Shown: positions 6,087-30,000 of the stretch, in pieces
Numbering within the stretch: the stretch's first letter is position 1
Layout of the letters: each line of letters begins with the position of its first letter
Source: Microbacterium sufflavum
Lineage (GTDB): Bacteria; Actinomycetota; Actinomycetes; Actinomycetales; Microbacteriaceae
Length of the DNA stretch: 64,000 nt
Assembly: GCF_023101165.1 (NCBI RefSeq)
Contig: NZ_CP078076.1
Location: 186,001-250,000 of the forward strand
Direction: 5' to 3'
Made by a program: the position numbers and the translations under genes
Notes under the pieces: generated by a model
Databases searched by the model: none
Seen by the model: only the letters and a program-made list of their open reading frames with translations
What the model was told of the DNA's origin: nothing

Positions 6087-7214
6087 TCAGGCGGGGAGGG
6101 AGCGGAGCGGCCAGGCGGGCCACCAGCCGTCGTCGAGCCCGCGCAGCAGGGCGGCCGCGCGCTCTCGCGCCTCGTCGGGCATCTCCGGCGCAGGACCGGA
6201 GCTGCTCTCCCGCCGCTCGCCGTCCGGCGACCGGATCTCCGTGTACAGCCACGCACGGCGACCCACGGGGTACTTCTCCCGGAAGCCCCCGGCGGCGACC
6301 GACAGCACGATCCGCTCCAGTTCGTCCGCCGCGGTCTCGGCGGTCTCGTCGCAGGCATCGCAGATGCACGAAGGCACGATCGCGTGGAAGTGGGCACCCG
6401 CGTCGATGCGGACGGAGGGAACGCCCAGCGTGATCGTGATCTGCGCACCGCGCGCCGGTTCGAGCACGACGCGCTCGGTCCCTCCCTCCCCCCTCTCTCG
6501 CCGCACCTCGACCTCGTACTCGCGACGGAGGTGCTCGATGAGCGCGTCGACCACGAGGGACAGCGGTGCGAAGCGCTCCAGGTGGGATTCCCGGGAGTAC
6601 GACTCCTCCGGCGCGATGCCGTCGGGCCAGCGGTGTCCGTAGGGGATCCCCTCGCCGCGGTCGTCGTGGAAGGTCAGGATCGGGAGAGCAGGCCGGACAT
6701 ACGCGCGCGCCGGGACGACGACGAACGCGGGAGCCGAATCCTCCGCGGACAGCGCCCTCATCTCCTCGTCATCGATGTCGTCCTGCTCCCACGGAGCGAG
6801 CATCTGCAGGAACGCATCCCGCTGGTCGGGCTGCTGCACCATCCCCTGCACGAGACCCGCGACCGGGATCGAGAGGGTGTTGGTCCCGATCTCCGGCTCA
6901 CTCGTCATCCGCCATGTCGCGGCCGGGTGCACGACCGCGATGACGTTCCCCACGAACCGCGCCGCCCCCGCGGCCAGCGTCTCGCTCTCGAGGACCTCAG
7001 GATGACCGGCGACGAAGTCCCACGTCGCCCCGAGATCGACGGCGAGCAGCGCGGGGTCGACCTCGTGGCCCCGCGCGAATTCGGCGAAAGGCTCGAAGCC
7101 GTCGACGAACCGGACCGGCCCCGGAGCATCCGCCTGCGGGGGCATCCACAGGACCGCGGCGGCACCCGCCTCGGGCATCGGGCCGAGGGGACCGGGGAAG
7201 ACAGCACTGCTCAT
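6087..7214 (-). CDS. Uncharacterised protein with C-terminal DUF6226-like domain
   Basis: Protein of 375 residues with no signal peptide or membrane segment. Residues 1 to about 180 are an unrecognised domain rich in Pro, Ala and acidic residues (Trp at 65 and 101). Residues about 195-375 resemble DUF6226 proteins of Microbacteriaceae, including a compact cysteine cluster, CICDACDE, at 283-290 that could bind a metal. The ATG at 7214 is preceded by TACGCT and exactly six bases, with no ribosome site, so the mRNA is probably leaderless. It stands alone between the transport operon promoter and ramB. Function unknown; the DUF match is from memory of the cysteine motif and is moderate. Confidence 0.6.
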
Positions 7215-7220
7215 CGACCG

Positions 7221-7226
7221 AGCGTA
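7221..7226 (-). promoter_or_regulatory. -10 hexamer TACGCT, leaderless
   Basis: Minus-strand TACGCT followed by six bases and the ATG at 7214; transcription should begin at or next to the start codon. Confidence 0.6.
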
Positions 7227-7236
7227 CCGAGCGGGG

Positions 7237-8688
7237 TCACCGCGGCGCGTGGGCCTCCAGGAACTCGTACACGTCGGTGGTGTCCACGCCGGGGAAGGCG
7301 CCGGTGGGCAGGGTCGCCAGCAGCGTGCGCGGGGTCTTCACGTTGGGCCACGACTGTTCGCGCCACCGCCCCTCCAGCTCCGCGGGGGCACGGCGGCAGC
7401 ACACCTCGACCGAGTGCTTCGAGACGCCGCGGTGCGGGGTGTCGCGGCCCACGAACCACTTCGTGTCGTCGAACCGCACCCCCACGCTCACGGAGTGCAG
7501 CCCCTCGCTCGACGCCTCGACCCGGGCCGTGCACCAATAGGTCCCGTTGCCCGTGTCCGTGTACTGGTAGTACGGGTTGAAGCGGTCGTCCTCGTCGAAC
7601 ACGACCCGCGAGGTCCACCGTCGACAGCACATCTGTCCCTCGATCGCGCCCAGCCGATCGGTCGGGAAGTTCACGTCGTCGTTCTCGTACGCCTTGGTGA
7701 TGGTGCCCGACTCGTGCACCTTGAGGAAGTGCACCGGGATGTCGAGGTGCCGTGTCGCGAGGTTGGTGAAGCGGTGCGCGGCCGTCTCGTACGACACGGA
7801 GTAGGCGTCGCGGAGGTCCTCGATCGAGATCGCGCGCCGCTGCTTCGCGTCCTTGAGCGTCGGCACGACGTGGGCCTCCGGGATGAGGAGGGCGCCCGTG
7901 AGGTAGTTCGTCTCGACGCGCTGCCGCAGGAACTCGGCGTAGCTGCGCGGCTCGGCGTGCCCGAGGATCCGGCTCGAGAGCGCCTGCAGCACCGCCGTCC
8001 GCGCATCACCCTTGGCCGGGACGCTGCTCGACAGGTAGAGCCGTCCGTGGGCGAGATCGGCGACGCTGCGAGTGGTCTGCGGCAGGTCGGGGGCGTAGTG
8101 CAGCGTGAAGCCGAGGTAGGCGGCGATCTCCGAGGCCGTCCGCTGCGTGAGGGGTCCGCCCGGGTGCCCGACCGCGGCGAGGATCTCCGACGCCTTGGCC
8201 TCCAGGTCGGCGAAGTGGTTGTCCTGCCTCCGCATCAGGTGCCGCAGCTCCACGTTCGCCCGCCGCGCCTCCTCCGGCGTGGCCGCCCGCTCGTCCCGCA
8301 GCCGGTCGATCTCGCCGTGGAGCGCGAGCATCGCCTTCAGCGCATCGGTCGGCACGGTCTTCGCGATGCGGAACGGGTCGATGCCGAGCGCCCGGAACGT
8401 CTGGCCCTTCATCGCCCGCTCCAGCGCGACCTCCAGGCTGCTGCGCTCGTCGAGCGGCTCGCCCTCCAGCAGCGCGTCGATCGTGACCCCGAGCGCTCGC
8501 GCGATCGCCTGGAGCTGCGTGAGCTTGGGCTCGCGCTTGCCGGTCTCGATCATCGACAGCTGACTGGGAGCGCGGTCCACCGCCGTCGCGAGCTCTTCGA
8601 GGGTCATCCCCTGAGCGGTGCGCAGCTGACGGATCCGTCGCCCGATCGTGAGGGCGTCGGTGTCTTCTGCGGCCTCGGTGCTGGTCAT
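7237..8688 (-). CDS. ramB: RamB-type regulator of acetate/glyoxylate metabolism
   Basis: XRE-family regulator of 483 residues. Residues about 14-70 are the HTH ([21 protein letters not shown], then [14 protein letters not shown] with the recognition helix). A central region (about 180-310) is the IrrE/ImmA-like domain found in RamB/ScfR proteins, and the C-terminal third has paired cysteines (MCCRRW and VCCRRAP). In Corynebacterium, RamB represses aceA, aceB and acetate genes. Here it is divergent from aceA with 132 nt between starts, the expected arrangement. The ATG at 8688 follows CAGAAT by seven bases and lacks a ribosome site, so it is probably leaderless. A much longer open frame extending to 11622 on this strand is an antisense shadow of aceA/aceB. 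Confidence 0.9.
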
Positions 8689-24853: not shown

Positions 24854-26401
24854 TCACACCTCGGAGTCGGCCTTCACCGGCACCGCGATCGACGCCGTGA
24901 GCGCCTGCTCGTACCGCCGCTGCCGACGCCGCAGCCACAGCCCGCCCGCGATCAGCAGCGCGAGCACGGCGTAGGCGACGGCCGCGAACGGCTGCGCGAC
25001 GAGCGTCGTCAGGTCGCCCTGGCTCAACTGAAGTGCGCGACGCAGCTGCTCCTCGCCCATCGGCCCGAGGATCATGCCCACCACGAGCGGCGCCACCGGG
25101 AACCCGTACCGGCGGAGGAAGTACCCCAGCACACCGATGATGAGCAGGATCAGGATGTCGACGACCGCGAAGTTCAGCGCATAGGCACCGAACGCGGCGA
25201 ACAGCAGGATGCCCGCGTAGAGGTACGGCCGAGGGATCTGCAGCAGCTTCACCCACATGCCCACGAGCGGGAGGTTGAGCACGAGCAGGATGACGTTGCC
25301 GATGTACAGGCTCGCCACCAGCGCCCACACCAGGTCGGACTGTCCCGTGAACAGCAGCGGGCCCGGCTGCAGGCCGTACGTCTGGAACGCGGTCAGGATG
25401 ATCGCCGCGGTCGCGGTGGTCGGCAGGCCGAGCGTCAGCAGCGGCACGAGCACTCCGGCCGCCGCCGCGTTGTTCGCCGACTCCGGCCCGGCCACCCCCT
25501 CGATGGCGCCACGCCCGAACTCGTCCTTGCGGCGGGAGAGCTTCCGCTCCGTCGCGTACGACAGGAAGGTCGCGACATCGGCACCGCCCGCCGGGATCGT
25601 CCCGATCGGGAACCCGATGGCGGTGCCGCGCAGCCACGGCTTCCACGACCGCCGCCAGTCGTCCTTCGTCATCCAGCTCCGCCACCCGCGCGCCACCGGG
25701 ATCACGTCGACCGCGCCGTGGCGCAGACGGGCGGCGACGTAGAGCGTCTCCCCCACGGCGAACAGGCCCACCGCCACCAGCACCACGTCGATGCCGTCCG
25801 CGAGCGGCAGCAGGCCGAGCGTGTAGCGCTGCTGCCCGGACAGCCAGTCGGTGCCGACCAGCCCGAGGAACAGCCCGACGCCGAGCGACAGCAGGCCCCG
25901 CGGCACCGAGGAGCCCATGAGCGCGCCGACCGTGACGAACGCGACGACGATCAGCGCCACGTAGTCCGCCGGTCCGAGGTTCACGGCGAACTGCGCCAGC
26001 ACCGGCGCCAGCAGCGTGAGGCCGATCGTCGCGAGCGTGCCGGCGACGAACGAGCCGATCGCCGCGGTCGCGAGGGCCGCGGCGCCCCGGCCGAGCTTGG
26101 CCATCCTGTTGCCCTCGATCGCGGTGACGATCGAGGCGGACTCCCCGGGAGTGTTGAGGAGGATGCTCGTGGTCGATCCGCCGTACATGCCGCCGTAGTA
26201 GATGCCGGCGAAGGTGATCAGGGCCGCGGCCGGCTCCAGCGTGTAGGTGAGCGGCAGGAGGAGGGCCACCGTCATGGCGGGGCCGATACCCGGGAGCACG
26301 CCCACTGCCGTACCGATCAGCACGCCGAAGAACGCGAACACGAGGTACTGGGGCTGCAGCGCGGTCGCGAAGCCCTCCAGGAGCAGGGTCCAGCTGTCCA
26401 T
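24854..26401 (-). CDS. tctA: Tripartite tricarboxylate transporter, large permease TctA
   Basis: Large membrane subunit of 515 residues with about 11-12 segments. The family motif [18 protein letters not shown] is at residues about 26-43, followed by [20 protein letters not shown], the most conserved TctA stretch, and by a second related motif [20 protein letters not shown] in the middle. It imports citrate or another carboxylate using a proton or sodium gradient with TctB and binding protein TctC. ATG at 26401 shares one base with the tctB stop (TGATG). It is the last gene of tctCBA. Confidence 0.95.
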
Positions 26402-26958
26402 CAGAGCATCCTCCCCAGCCAGCCGAGCGCCGGCCCCCAGGGGAGCGACAGCCCGAGCAGTCCGCCGAACACGATCTGCACCACGAGCGCGATGGCCGCA
26501 CCGACCAGCAGGGCCACCCACCATCGGCGTGCCCCGAGCGCCCAGGCGACACCGCCGAACAGCAGCGCCGCGGCGGGCGCCCACCCGAGCGGCTCGATCA
26601 GCAGCAGGTGCGCCACCACGAGCCCCACGATCTTCACGAGCGCGAGCCAGTCCGTCGGGAGCTCCTGGTCGATGTCCTCGCCGTCCTCCGGGACGCCGCG
26701 GTGACCGCGGAGGATGCTCACGACCACGGCCACCGCCGACCCGAGCAGCAGCACCGACACGAACAGGGGGAACACGGTCGGACCCACCTGGGCGCCGGCA
26801 GGGACGTGGATGGAGAACACGCCGACGAGGGCGAACACACCGAGCGCGACCATGAGGAGGGCGAAGACGAGCTCGCCCCGCGGCAGGGACCCGAGCGAGC
26901 CCACCGACCGGCGTGTGCCGGTCTGCAGGCCCGAGGGTCCGGGAGACCCGGTCGACAT
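26401..26958 (-). CDS. tctB: Tripartite tricarboxylate transporter, small subunit TctB
   Basis: Small membrane subunit of 185 residues with four predicted segments ([38 protein letters not shown], a pair around residues 115-150 and a last one before [11 protein letters not shown]). A hydrophilic loop, acidic and with Gly/Asp, lies between segments 2 and 3. ATG at 26958 follows the tctC stop by one base; an upstream frame to 27066 lies inside tctC and is rejected. Sequence conservation in TctB is low, so the call rests on topology and position between tctC and tctA. Confidence 0.92.
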
Positions 26959-26959
26959 G

Positions 26960-27979
26960 TCAGCCGACCAGCCCGATGTTCTGCAGCGTCGTGGTGACCT
27001 CGCCGATGTTGCCGGCGAGGAACTCGTCGAACTCCGCACCGGTGAGGAACGCGTCGGCCCACCCACGGGTCTCCAGCTCGTCCTTCCAGGCGTCCAACTC
27101 CTCCAGCTCGGTCACGATGCGCTCCAGCTCCGCGCGCTCGGCGTCGTCGATGCCCCCCGGGGCGATCACGCCGCGCCAGTTGGTGAGCACCACGTCGTAG
27201 CCGGCGTCGGTGATGGTGTCCACGTCGGGCAGCTGCGCGACGGGCTCGTCAGACGACACCGCGAGCGCCTTCATCGTCCCCGCCTCGATGTGCTGCAGGA
27301 ACTCGCCGACGCCCGAGATGCCCGCGGCGACCTTGCCGCCGAGGATCAGCGACGTCGCCTCGCCGCCACCGGAGTTGGGCGTGTAGTTGAGCTTCTCCGC
27401 GATCTCCCCGCCGTCCAGGCCCGCCTCCTCCAGCAGGAGCCCGGCCAGGATGTGGTCGGCCCCGCCCGCCGAACCGCCGGTGATGGTCACGGCCTGTCCG
27501 CGGTCGACGACGTCCTCCACCAGGTCCTCGAGCGTGTCGTACTCCGACTCCGCGGGCACGACCACCACGAGCGGCTCGTCGGTGAGGCGGGCGATCGGCG
27601 TCATGTCCTCGATGCGGACCGCGGACGCGTTGGTCTCGACCGCTCCGACCATGACCAGTCCCATCACCATGAGCGTCGCCGGGTCCTTCTCGTTGGCGAG
27701 CTGCGCGAGGCCGACGGTCCCCCCGGCGCCTCCGACGTTCGTGACCGGGGCGGAGCCGACGATCTCCTCCTCCGTGAGCAGCTGCGACATCGCGCGGCCG
27801 CTCTGGTCCCACCCGCCGCCAGGGTCGGCGGGGACCACGATGTTCAGGTCGGTGATGGCGACGGCTTCGCCGTCTCCGTCCGAGCCTCCGGCGTCTCCGC
27901 CTCCCGACGAGCACGCGGTGAGAGCGAGGGCGGTGGCGGCGACCGCGGCGGTCAGGGTGGCGATGCGGACGTACTTCAT
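26960..27979 (-). CDS. tctC: Tripartite tricarboxylate transporter, substrate-binding lipoprotein TctC
   Basis: Bug/TctC-family binding protein of 339 residues, a lipoprotein by its LTAC lipobox (Cys23). The mature part begins LNIVVPADPGGGWDQSGRAM, the ligand-carboxylate-binding loop of the family, and includes VTITGGSAGGADHI and GGKVAAGISGVGEF. AGGAGGAG lies five bases before the ATG. It heads tctCBA and is divergent from the sensor-regulator gene at 28140; homologous systems are controlled by CitA/CitB-type regulators. Ligand probably citrate or a dicarboxylate. Confidence 0.94.
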   Translation of the reverse strand: MKYVRIATLTAAVAATALALTACSSGGGDAGGSDGDGEAVAITDLNIVVPADPGGGWDQSGRAMSQLLTEEEIVGSAPVTNVGGAGGTVGLAQLANEKDPATLMVMGLVMVGAVETNASAVRIEDMTPIARLTDEPLVVVVPAESEYDTLEDLVEDVVDRGQAVTITGGSAGGADHILAGLLLEEAGLDGGEIAEKLNYTPNSGGGEATSLILGGKVAAGISGVGEFLQHIEAGTMKALAVSSDEPVAQLPDVDTITDAGYDVVLTNWRGVIAPGGIDDAERAELERIVTELEELDAWKDELETRGWADAFLTGAEFDEFLAGNIGEVTTTLQNIGLVG

Positions 27980-28056
27980 GGCGCTCCTCCTTGAGCGTTC
28001 GAGTGCAATCCGTCCACCATCGAGGTGTGGATGCGGCCGCTCAAGCTTCCGAAACC

Positions 28057-28086
28057 ATTGGTCGCGTTCCGTAAGTATTGGTCGCG
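28057..28086. promoter_or_regulatory. Direct repeat ATTGGTCGCG between tctC and its regulator
   Basis: Two exact copies of ATTGGTCGCG (28057-28066 and 28077-28086) start 20 bases apart, about two helical turns, in the 160-nt divergent intergenic region. Direct repeats on one face of the helix suit tandem binding by a CitB-type HTH protein; this is inference. Confidence 0.5.
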
Positions 28087-28139
28087 AACGCCGGTCCGCG
28101 CGGCTCGCGCCCTGGTTCGACAGCCGGGAGAATGAGCGG

Positions 28140-29360
28140 GTGGCCTCGAAGATGACGCTCCGGATGCAGCTGCTCGCACTGCAGGCGCTGATCGTGTTCC
28201 TGGTGACCCTCGCCACCGGGATCGCCGCCGGGGCGTTCCAGGAGAACGCACTCCGCGAGGCCTACAAGGATCGCATGCAGGCGGTCGCGCAGTCCGTGGC
28301 CGCGCTGCCCGTGGTGCTCGACGCGTTCGACGACGACGATCCCTCCGCGGCGATCCAGCCGGTCGCGGAGGTGATCAGGGAGGCGTCCGACCTCGCGTAC
28401 GTGGTGGTCGCCAACGACGAGGGCATCCGGTACTCGCACCCGAACCCGGAGCGCATCGGCGAACGGGTCTCGACCGATCCGTCGATCCCGCTCGGCGGCG
28501 ATATCTACGTGGGCACGCAGACCGGCACGCTGGGCACCTCCTGGCGCGTGAAGGTGCCGATCCGGGATGAGGATGGCGTCGTGATCGGCACGGCATCGGT
28601 GGGCATCCTGGAGTCGGAGCTCAGTGAGGAGTTCACCGCCAACCTGGTGTGGCTGATCTCCGCCATGCTCGCCGCTGCCGTGCTGGGCGTGTTCGGAGCG
28701 GCATGGGTGACCTCGGTGATCCGGCGCCGCATCTACCGCTTGGAGCCCCATCAGATCGCGGCACTCGTGAAGAACCAGGAGACGACGCTGCACGGGCTGA
28801 GCGAGGGCGTGGTCACGGTCGACGGTTCCGGGCGCATCACGCTCGCGAACGACGCGGCCGCCCGTTTCCTCGGTCGTGATGCGGGCGACCTCGACGGTGC
28901 CGTGGCGGCCGACGTCCTGGGCGAGGAGCTCACGACGGTGCTGCGTGAGGGCGAGGCCGCCGGCCGCCCGGTGATCGTGGGGTCGCACGTGCTCGTCGCC
29001 CGCAGCACCGCGAGCCGCGACGACGACGCCGACCGTGGCGCGACCCTGCTGCTGCGCGACCACACCGAGTTGCACGACGTGGTGCAGCGCGTCGAGGCGG
29101 CAGACGCCATCATCGCGTTCCGCGAGCGGTTCGGCCTGCCGAAGGGCCTGAGCGCGGAGACGCTCCACCGCGTGTCCACGGCACTCGCCGCCCGTCCGGA
29201 CGCCTCAGCGGCGGAGCTGGGCGCCGACCTCGACATCTCCCGCGTGAGCGCCCGCCGCTACCTGGAGCATCTGGCCGCCACCGGGCAGGCGGTGCGCTCG
29301 CTCGACTACAGCACGAAGGGCCGACCGGGGGCGCGGTACCGCAGCACCGACGGCCGCTGA
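28140..29360 (+). CDS. Membrane sensor fused directly to a CitB-type DNA-binding domain (no kinase, no receiver)
   Basis: Protein of 406 residues. Segment about 10-32 is a membrane helix, 33-175 an extracytoplasmic PDC/sCACHE sensor of CitA/DctB type (SDLAYVVVANDEGIRYSHPN, RIGERVSTDPSIPLGGD), about 176-198 a second helix, and about 210-310 a PAS domain ending LLLRDHTELHDV, where the histidine kinase linker normally begins. The phosphoacceptor H-box and ATPase domain are absent. From about 330 the sequence is the C-terminal HTH of CitB/DcuR response regulators: LPKGLSAETL, then LDISRVSARRYLEHL and GRPGARYR. An in-frame fusion has removed kinase and receiver. GTG at 28140 has GGGAG nine bases upstream; ATG at 28152 is the alternative. 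Divergent from tctCBA, which it probably controls. Confidence 0.85.
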   Translation: MASKMTLRMQLLALQALIVFLVTLATGIAAGAFQENALREAYKDRMQAVAQSVAALPVVLDAFDDDDPSAAIQPVAEVIREASDLAYVVVANDEGIRYSHPNPERIGERVSTDPSIPLGGDIYVGTQTGTLGTSWRVKVPIRDEDGVVIGTASVGILESELSEEFTANLVWLISAMLAAAVLGVFGAAWVTSVIRRRIYRLEPHQIAALVKNQETTLHGLSEGVVTVDGSGRITLANDAAARFLGRDAGDLDGAVAADVLGEELTTVLREGEAAGRPVIVGSHVLVARSTASRDDDADRGATLLLRDHTELHDVVQRVEAADAIIAFRERFGLPKGLSAETLHRVSTALAARPDASAAELGADLDISRVSARRYLEHLAATGQAVRSLDYSTKGRPGARYRSTDGR

Positions 29361-29375
29361 CGACCCCCGGTGACG

Positions 29376-29412
29376 ACGAAGCCCGCCACCCCAGTGGGGC
29401 GGCGGGCTTCGT
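29376..29412. terminator. Bidirectional terminator between the sensor-regulator and rplQ
   Basis: Stem ACGAAGCCCGCC (29376-29387) with GGCGGGCTTCGT (29401-29412), the loop holding a further CCCCAGTGGGG helix. It lies 15 bases after one stop and 12 bases from the convergent rplQ stop. Confidence 0.9.
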
Positions 29413-29424
29413 GGCGTTCGAGTG

Positions 29425-30000
29425 TTACTCGGACTTCTTCTCGACAGCGTCCTCGGCGGCGGCCTCAGCGGCCTCGCCCTCGGCCTGCGACTCGGCGCCG
29501 GCCTCGGCAGCGGTGTCCTCGGCCGGGGTCTCCTCGGCCGGAGCCTCGGTGGTCTCCTCGGCGGCGGGGGTCTCCTCGGCGGCGGGCTTCTCGGCCTTCG
29601 GCGCGGCAGCAGCCTTCTTGGTCGACTTCGCCTTCGGGGTGACGGGCTCGAGAACGAGCTCGATCACGGCCATCGGAGCGTTGTCGCCCTTACGGTTGCC
29701 GACCTTGGTGATGCGCGTGTAGCCACCCTCGCGGTCCGCGACGAGCGGAGCGATCTCGTTGAACAGGACGTGCACGACTTCCTTGTCACCGATGACCGAC
29801 AGCACGCGACGGCGTGCGTGCAGGTCTCCGCGCTTGGCGAAGGTGATCAGGCGCTCGGCGAGCGGACGCAGGCGCTTGGCCTTGGTCTCGGTCGTCTTGA
29901 TCGACTTGTGGGTGTACAGCGCGGCAGCCAGGTTGGCAAGCAGCAGGCGCTCGTGGGCGGGGCCGCCTCCGAGGCGGGGACCCTTCGTGGGCTTGGGCAT
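29425..30000 (-). CDS. rplQ: Ribosomal protein L17
   Basis: Large-subunit protein near the peptide exit tunnel, 191 residues. Residues 1 to about 120 are the conserved domain ([20 protein letters not shown], then [20 protein letters not shown]). Residues about 125-191 are a low-complexity Ala/Glu/Thr/Pro tail, strongly acidic, not present in E. coli L17 (about 127 residues) but common in actinobacteria. It follows rpoA by 34 nt and ends the alpha operon before a terminator. Confidence 0.98.

Follow-up and report, generated by a model that had tools for sequence, protein, structure and literature searches.

The closest described regulators are CitAB of Corynebacterium glutamicum and the group of CitAB of Klebsiella and DcuSR and DpiBA of Escherichia coli. 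They resemble the gene described here in the type of sensor and in the type of DNA-binding domain. CitAB of C. glutamicum also shares its transporter target, tctCBA. With citrate, it switches on both citH and tctCBA (PMC3353115).

CadC, ToxR, and other transmembrane transcription regulators carry the sensor outside and the DNA-binding domain inside on one polypeptide, with no phosphotransfer. CadC and ToxR are single-pass proteins with an N-terminal DNA-binding domain. One-component regulators are usually regarded as the ancestors of two-component systems. Hybrid transmembrane regulators and the hybrid two-component systems of Bacteroides also place a sensor and a DNA-binding domain on one membrane protein. 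They have at least one of HisKA, HATPase, and receiver, according to a 2023 survey of transmembrane transcription regulators (PMC10269533). The same survey states that transmembrane transcription regulators may descend from two-component systems, cites Rsp of Neisseria gonorrhoeae, and describes it as a repressor of pilA (PMC10269533). Rsp combines the receptor part of a membrane sensor kinase with the DNA-binding part of the response regulator that is its partner (PMC10269533, PMC6528607). A survey of Cache domains counts transcription factors as 3 of 2,499 sCache_3_2 proteins (PMC4822843).

The window is the whole stretch of DNA analyzed, 64,000 nucleotides from Microbacterium sufflavum. It contains an uninterrupted reading frame that runs from a GTG through 406 codons to a stop (Table 1). 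The protein has, in order, a transmembrane segment, an sCache_3_2 domain, a second transmembrane segment, a cytoplasmic PAS domain, and a CitB/DcuR-type winged helix-turn-helix (HTH). We consider it likely that this is a two-pass, membrane-tethered, one-component activator of tctCBA that senses an external tri- or dicarboxylate and came from a collapsed two-gene operon. The sequences support the architecture, a single origin, both parents, purifying selection, linkage to the target, and a conserved intergenic repeat with fixed spacing. We infer membrane insertion, dimerization, the identity of the ligand, DNA binding, and activation over repression. Regulation would depend on the ligand and would proceed without phosphotransfer.

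Table 1. Features of the fused regulator locus (positions in the window)
Feature	Position	Strand	Basis and remarks
Fused sensor/DNA-binding regulator gene	28140..29360	+	GTG start, 406 aa; ORF and domain searches
Transmembrane segment 1 (predicted)	28170..28226	+	Residues 11-29; hydropathy peak 2.36; long helix 7-54 in model
Extracytoplasmic sCache_3_2 (PDC) sensor	28242..28637	+	Residues 35-166; Pfam, alignment, structure matches
Transmembrane segment 2 (predicted)	28644..28700	+	Residues 169-187; hydropathy peak 2.29; helix 158-198 in model
Cytoplasmic PAS domain	28782..29060	+	About residues 215-307; Pfam, model, profile matches to DcuS/CitA cytoplasmic PAS structures
Junction helix (predicted)	29064..29132	+	Residues 309-331; alignment; model at low confidence
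CitB/DcuR-type winged HTH	29154..29345	+	Residues 339-402; NCBIfam, tree of the C-terminal half, model
Operator-like copy proximal to tctC, TTCCGAAACCATTGGTCGCG	28047..28066 (core 28057-28063)	.	Repeat comparison across loci
Operator-like copy distal to tctC, TTCCGTAAGTATTGGTCGCG	28067..28086 (core 28077-28083)	.	Second unit of the 20-bp tandem repeat
Putative -10 hexamer of tctC (GATGGT)	28016..28021	-	35 bp from proximal core; position common across loci
tctC, tricarboxylate-binding protein	26960..27979	-	ATG at 27979; translation, synteny; likely start of target operon
tctB	26401..26895 (start approximate)	-	Translation
tctA	24854..26401 (start approximate)	-	Translation, synteny

Pfam matched sCache_3_2 above its cutoff (3e-33) and PAS at residues 215 to 260. 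The Pfam matches to the HTH (HTH_11 and the DpiA-like HTH_64) were weak and below the cutoff. HisKA, SPOB_a, HATPase, and Response_reg gave no Pfam match in the fused protein at an E value of ≤1. The NCBIfam model of the DcuS kinase matched over positions 3 to 325 of 529, and that of the DcuR response regulator matched over positions 149 to 226 of 239. Both scores are far below the cutoffs because half is missing from each. Hydropathy gave two peaks, one at each predicted span. The protein thus has the sensor between two spans and the following PAS domain of a CitA/DcuS-type kinase, and it lacks the SPOB_a-type H-box helix and HATPase. It has the C-terminal winged HTH of a CitB/DcuR-type regulator, and it lacks the N-terminal receiver with the phosphoacceptor Asp. 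Sequence and model predict spans and a DNA-binding domain in one polypeptide, as in a one-component transmembrane regulator. The sequence-only reading of this locus had proposed a PDC sensor and PAS domain passing into a CitB-type HTH, in a continuous frame, without H-box, ATPase, or receiver, and with a divergent tctCBA neighbor. The Pfam, NCBIfam, and hydropathy results agree with these domains and, at E values of ≤1, with these absences. The motifs that it quoted are present, and the tctC start codon lies on the opposite strand.

The sequence GGGAGAAT ahead of the GTG could be a ribosome site or, equally, the -10 element of a near-leaderless start. A GAGAATG/GACAATG-like element lies shortly 5' of the regulator start codon, at 28120-28140 of the window and at the same place in other loci. 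It is TANNNT-like in several two-gene relatives, and the regulator transcript may be almost leaderless.

The best sequence profile matches to the sensor among solved structures were the sensor domains of CitA and DcuS. The fold search returned first a loose whole-length match to the WalK model 9a5d. It was followed by citrate-bound CitA of Geobacillus (8bgb; 0.9 Å rmsd; 122 columns with 43% identity) and, after this, by DcuS. R97 of the fusion aligns with R93 of CitA, which is mutated (R93A) in the citrate-free structure 8biy. Alignment A1 (46 rows) shows no variation at R97, H100, or R136, and K138 is conserved in at least 90%. The fusion has kept carboxylate-binding residues of the CitA type, with the R-x-K pattern of CitA, whereas DcuS has R-x-F. 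The hydrophobic peaks, the matches to citrate-bound CitA, and the invariant R97 suggest membrane tethering and carboxylate binding. With tctCBA as the target, our best guess at the ligand is citrate or a similar tricarboxylate.

The AlphaFold2 model had a mean pLDDT of 81.7 and a pTM of 0.45. It shows the Cache domain, the second transmembrane segment, the PAS domain, the junction helix, and the winged HTH, with a pTM at which the placement of the domains is unsure. The junction helix has pLDDT block means of 60 and 56; with this pTM, the model therefore gives no confident prediction of how PAS and HTH are coupled. Residues 203 to 220 are also modeled at low confidence. Such a stretch could favor release of the HTH from the membrane by regulated proteolysis, after which it would act as a soluble factor. 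Regulated proteolysis is known in other membrane-bound regulators (PMC7593790). We consider this very unlikely here, where the segment between PAS and HTH is more conserved than any other part of the protein.

Relatives with two genes point to the origin of the fusion. The gap between the sensor-half match and the HTH match was 1,032 to 1,146 bp in 25 of 26 two-gene loci. It was 1,502 bp in L115, which has a broken kinase. In the alignment, the fusion follows the kinase through RDHTELH..RRV (RDHTELHDVV.RV) and matches the regulator from roughly its conserved D onward. The spacing from this D to LPKG is 10 residues in the fusion. It is also 10 in the two-gene loci L090, L095, L096, L099, L100, and L132, and it is 11 to 12 in L089, L091, L092, L094, L134, and L136. 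The nearest two-gene locus, L089, retains SPOB_a, HATPase_c, and Response_reg (residues 7 to 119 of the partner), the parts that are absent from the fusion. An in-frame loss of roughly 1.0 to 1.1 kb, removing the kinase transmitter, the gene boundary, and the receiver, is supported by these alignments.

Trees of the two halves included 19 fusions, and both came with program warnings on long branches among the far and outgroup rows. In the sensor-half tree (47 rows), the 19 fusions formed one clade (support, 100/99) with L089 as the sister (99/97). This clade lay within a 30-row clade (98/100) that holds 11 two-gene loci. In the tree of the DNA-binding half (52 rows), the fusions again formed one clade (100/94), nested in a clade made up of those 30 loci (100/98). 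L089 had a long branch in this tree and grouped with other two-gene rows, not as sister to the fusions. Each half thus has one fusion clade within the same group of two-gene operons, and the fusion would therefore have arisen once. A single event joining the halves of one operon is the simplest reading. As in an Rsp-like chimera, a kinase sensor and the DNA-binding end of the cognate regulator make up one protein, both halves coming from the same operon group. The junction alignment, the single-origin trees, and the tctCBA synteny shared by both forms support the in-frame fusion proposed in the sequence-only reading. That reading had named absence of the fusion from all relatives as counting against it; both the fused and the two-gene forms were found in relatives.

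The genus search covered 366 genomes at an E value of ≤1e-45, with the best 5 candidates per genome scored and the classes counted from the resulting rows. A match was found in 102 genomes. Full-length open fusions were present in 54 of the 366 at 70 to 100% identity, including single-contig assemblies; one of them, besides that of the window, is from the same species. Kinase-half matches numbered 45, at 44 to 63% identity, with 35% in G123 and partial matches in G154 and G271. Three fusions were damaged (G288, G160, and G222). At this threshold all 102 genomes had one match each, apart from split pieces of a single copy in G288 and G222. No genome with the fused and two-gene forms together was seen among these 102 with the best 5 candidates scored. 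Six fused relatives had nearly all candidates scored; their other matches were at most 49% identical, and the longer sensor matches were 29 to 35% identical. The genome of the window also has an unfused kinase/regulator pair, and its HTH is 51% identical to that of the fusion. The regulator of this pair might act at the same site.

A second collection of 33 named loci contained 29 full fusions, 1 damaged fusion (L088), and 3 two-gene loci (two from Agromyces and one from a Microbacteriaceae MAG). Species with the fusion include Microbacterium oxydans, M. maritypicum, M. algeriense, M. hydrocarbonoxydans, M. azadirachtae, and M. aurantiacum. Sampling of 398 family genomes (E value of ≤1e-60; 29 with a match; fusion rows only in G000 and G231) and of 296 phylum genomes (E value of ≤1e-12; 24 with a match) gave no fusion outside the genus. 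Scoring in these samples took in only the top few candidates from each genome, and a very divergent fusion could escape. Independent fusions elsewhere are not supported by these samples.

The unusual architecture, taken alone, could indicate an assembly error or a pseudogene. The 54 intact copies, single-contig genomes among them, the lack of stops, the single clade of the fusions in the trees, and the second collection refute this reading, to which we give almost no weight. The frameshifted copy of G288 (L110) was not counted as a case of decay. The rpoA and tctA genes are also split in this assembly, so the frameshift was read as sequencing errors. In L111 (G160, about 6500 to 7640) and L112 (G222, about 6456 to 8380), the sensor half, tctC, and part of tctA are absent and the HTH end is left. 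Joint loss of transporter and regulator is a possible explanation of these gaps.

Selection was estimated by the Nei-Gojobori method from 25 fusions in 300 pairs, which are not independent and have a partly saturated median pS of 0.48. The median dN/dS was 0.234 overall. It was 0.243 for the Cache domain, 0.247 for the second transmembrane segment, 0.256 for the PAS domain, and 0.163 for the HTH. The lowest stretch was the new junction (residues 313 to 333), with 0.099. None of the 25 fusions has an internal stop. Purifying selection on the fused gene is supported by these estimates. The fusion has been long retained in one Microbacterium lineage beside citrate-type transporter genes.

The fusion may instead be the remnant of a two-component system that no longer responds to a signal, a tethered DNA-binding protein acting as a constitutive activator (or repressor) of tctCBA. 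In DcuS, removal of the cytoplasmic PAS domain or reorganization of its dimer leads to a constitutive ON state (PMC3892338); a PAS domain with a rewired output could thus be stuck in one state. We regard this as unlikely. Both the Cache and the PAS domains are under purifying selection, and R97, H100, and R136 do not vary in A1.

The genes divergent from the regulator are those that we take, from reading their translations, to be tctC, tctB, and tctA. The tctC and tctA genes lie upstream on the opposite strand in all 43 intact fusion loci with flanks, which represent 36 distinct contigs (7 loci repeat one). The same arrangement is found in 24 of 26 two-gene loci; the exceptions are L104 and L105. 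The fused regulator probably switches on the adjacent tctCBA genes.

The rplQ gene is near the fusion in 34 of the 43 fusion loci. No rplQ or rpoA match was found in any of the 26 two-gene loci within the stretch fetched, so the locus seems to have been moved or transferred. In the window, the rplQ product (ribosomal protein L17) extends past the part taken as conserved by a C-terminal tail of about 65 residues that is rich in Ala, Glu, and Pro (29425-29625, reverse strand). The fusion gene and rplQ converge, and the interval between their ends holds, at 29378-29411, a long inverted repeat of high GC content, gaagcccgccacccc-agt-ggggcggcgggcttc. This repeat is possibly a two-way terminator. 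The scan listed only another stem, at 29416.

The intergenic region was compared with the yardstick AACTATTGGTC (11 positions) in 24 loci with the fusion and in 21 near two-gene loci. The sequence upstream of L133 is identical to that of L089, and L086, L093, L098, L101, L104, L105, and L115 are outside the comparison. The copy near the regulator had at most 2 mismatches of 11 in all 45 loci, partly by construction, because it was picked as the best match. A second copy, sought at a spacing of 18 to 22, had at most 2 mismatches in 23 of the 24 fusions (L121 has one copy) versus 1 of the 21 near two-gene loci (L094). In simple shuffles, 2 or fewer mismatches came up once in 2,250. All 24 fusions derive from one event, so this difference amounts to one change beside one change. 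No clear ATTGGTC core was found in eight far two-gene loci (L085, L102, L106 to L109, L116, and L117) or in L143 to L149. With zero mismatches allowed, the genome has a single instance of the double motif, and a broad operator regulon was rejected on this count. The conserved repeat suggests that the regulator acts at the divergent promoter.

The distance from the end of the proximal core to the -10-like hexamer, toward tctC, is exactly 35 bp in 23 of the 24 fusion loci and 36 bp in L063. It holds at copy distances of 20 or 21 bp and in the single-copy L121, which is within the 23. The hexamer was selected by an ad hoc score over offsets 25 to 62. It is TANNNT in 14 of the 24 fusion loci and [G/C]ANNGT in the window and nine others, and the GATGGT of the window narrowly outscored the next candidate. 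Scanning 27900-29500 for the sigma-70 consensus turned up no promoter, so conservation of position is the sole basis of the -10 calls. The constant 35-bp spacing fits an activator adjoining the -35 region. The regulator could also repress, with the apo form on the tandem operator and the ligand releasing it, and the conserved repeat does sit between both start sites. This is improbable. The proximal copy is upstream of the putative -35 at the spacing just given, which suits an activator, and the related CitAB activates tctCBA (PMC3353115).

Two-gene sites are of two kinds. Eight single-copy two-gene loci have the 35-bp spacing, and 12 others have a strong copy at 54 to 55 bp with a worn copy or none in the proximal place; L134 fits neither pattern. 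We suggest only tentatively, and with more doubt than belief, that the protein and its operator changed in step: as the phosphorylation switch went, a second copy that had been worn or missing became a full tandem copy. The tethered dimer would then read ligand binding as the spacing of its HTHs on two sites separated by about two helical turns. An old double site that was lost differently in the two-gene lines would also fit the two kinds of two-gene site.

In the one-component activator that we favor, the ancestor would be a CitA/DcuS-type kinase and a CitB/DcuR-type regulator in a two-gene operon divergent from tctCBA. One in-frame loss in the ancestor of the Microbacterium clade would have produced the two-pass protein. 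The extracytoplasmic Cache domain would bind a tri- or dicarboxylate, with citrate the likeliest. Movement would be relayed through the second transmembrane segment and the PAS dimer to the joining helix. This helix would alter the seating of the two HTHs of the dimer on the tandem 20/21-bp operators beside the tctC promoter.

Our literature search, made mostly at the level of titles and the openings of abstracts and with thin coverage of subscription journals, recognized no description of this fusion. The CitAB, DcuSR, and DpiBA group uses two proteins and phosphotransfer, whereas the fusion is one protein without kinase or receiver. CadC and ToxR differ in that the HTH of the fusion is C-terminal, after two spans and a PAS domain, and in that its parent two-component system is identifiable. 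Hybrid regulators keep at least one phosphotransfer domain from the set given above, and the fusion has none (Pfam, E value of ≤1). Rsp belongs to the PilS/PilR (Nps/Npa) families, and the Microbacterium fusion has another sensor and another HTH. The fusion matches the DcuS and DcuR families and does not share PilS/PilR descent; it is set apart by these family matches and not by an alignment with Rsp. Set against Rsp, it is also present in 54 of 366 genomes of its genus and has kept its divergent transporter operon. Rsp is thus a partial precedent.

The fusion adds a variant to the known transmembrane transcription regulators. This work adds its single origin and parents, its retention across a clade, and a junction that is its most constrained part. 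It also adds an operator-like repeat with fixed geometry and a difference in copy number between the fused and two-gene forms. The step reverses the usual order: two components have become one, the target operon is the same, and both parents are extant in related species. If protein and operator did change together, evolution from two components to one could be replayed. Direct drive of a DNA-binding domain by a Cache-PAS kinase sensor, the cost of a membrane tether, and the adaptation of an operator upon loss of phosphorylation all become testable. The fusion is also a possible template for one-gene carboxylate sensors.
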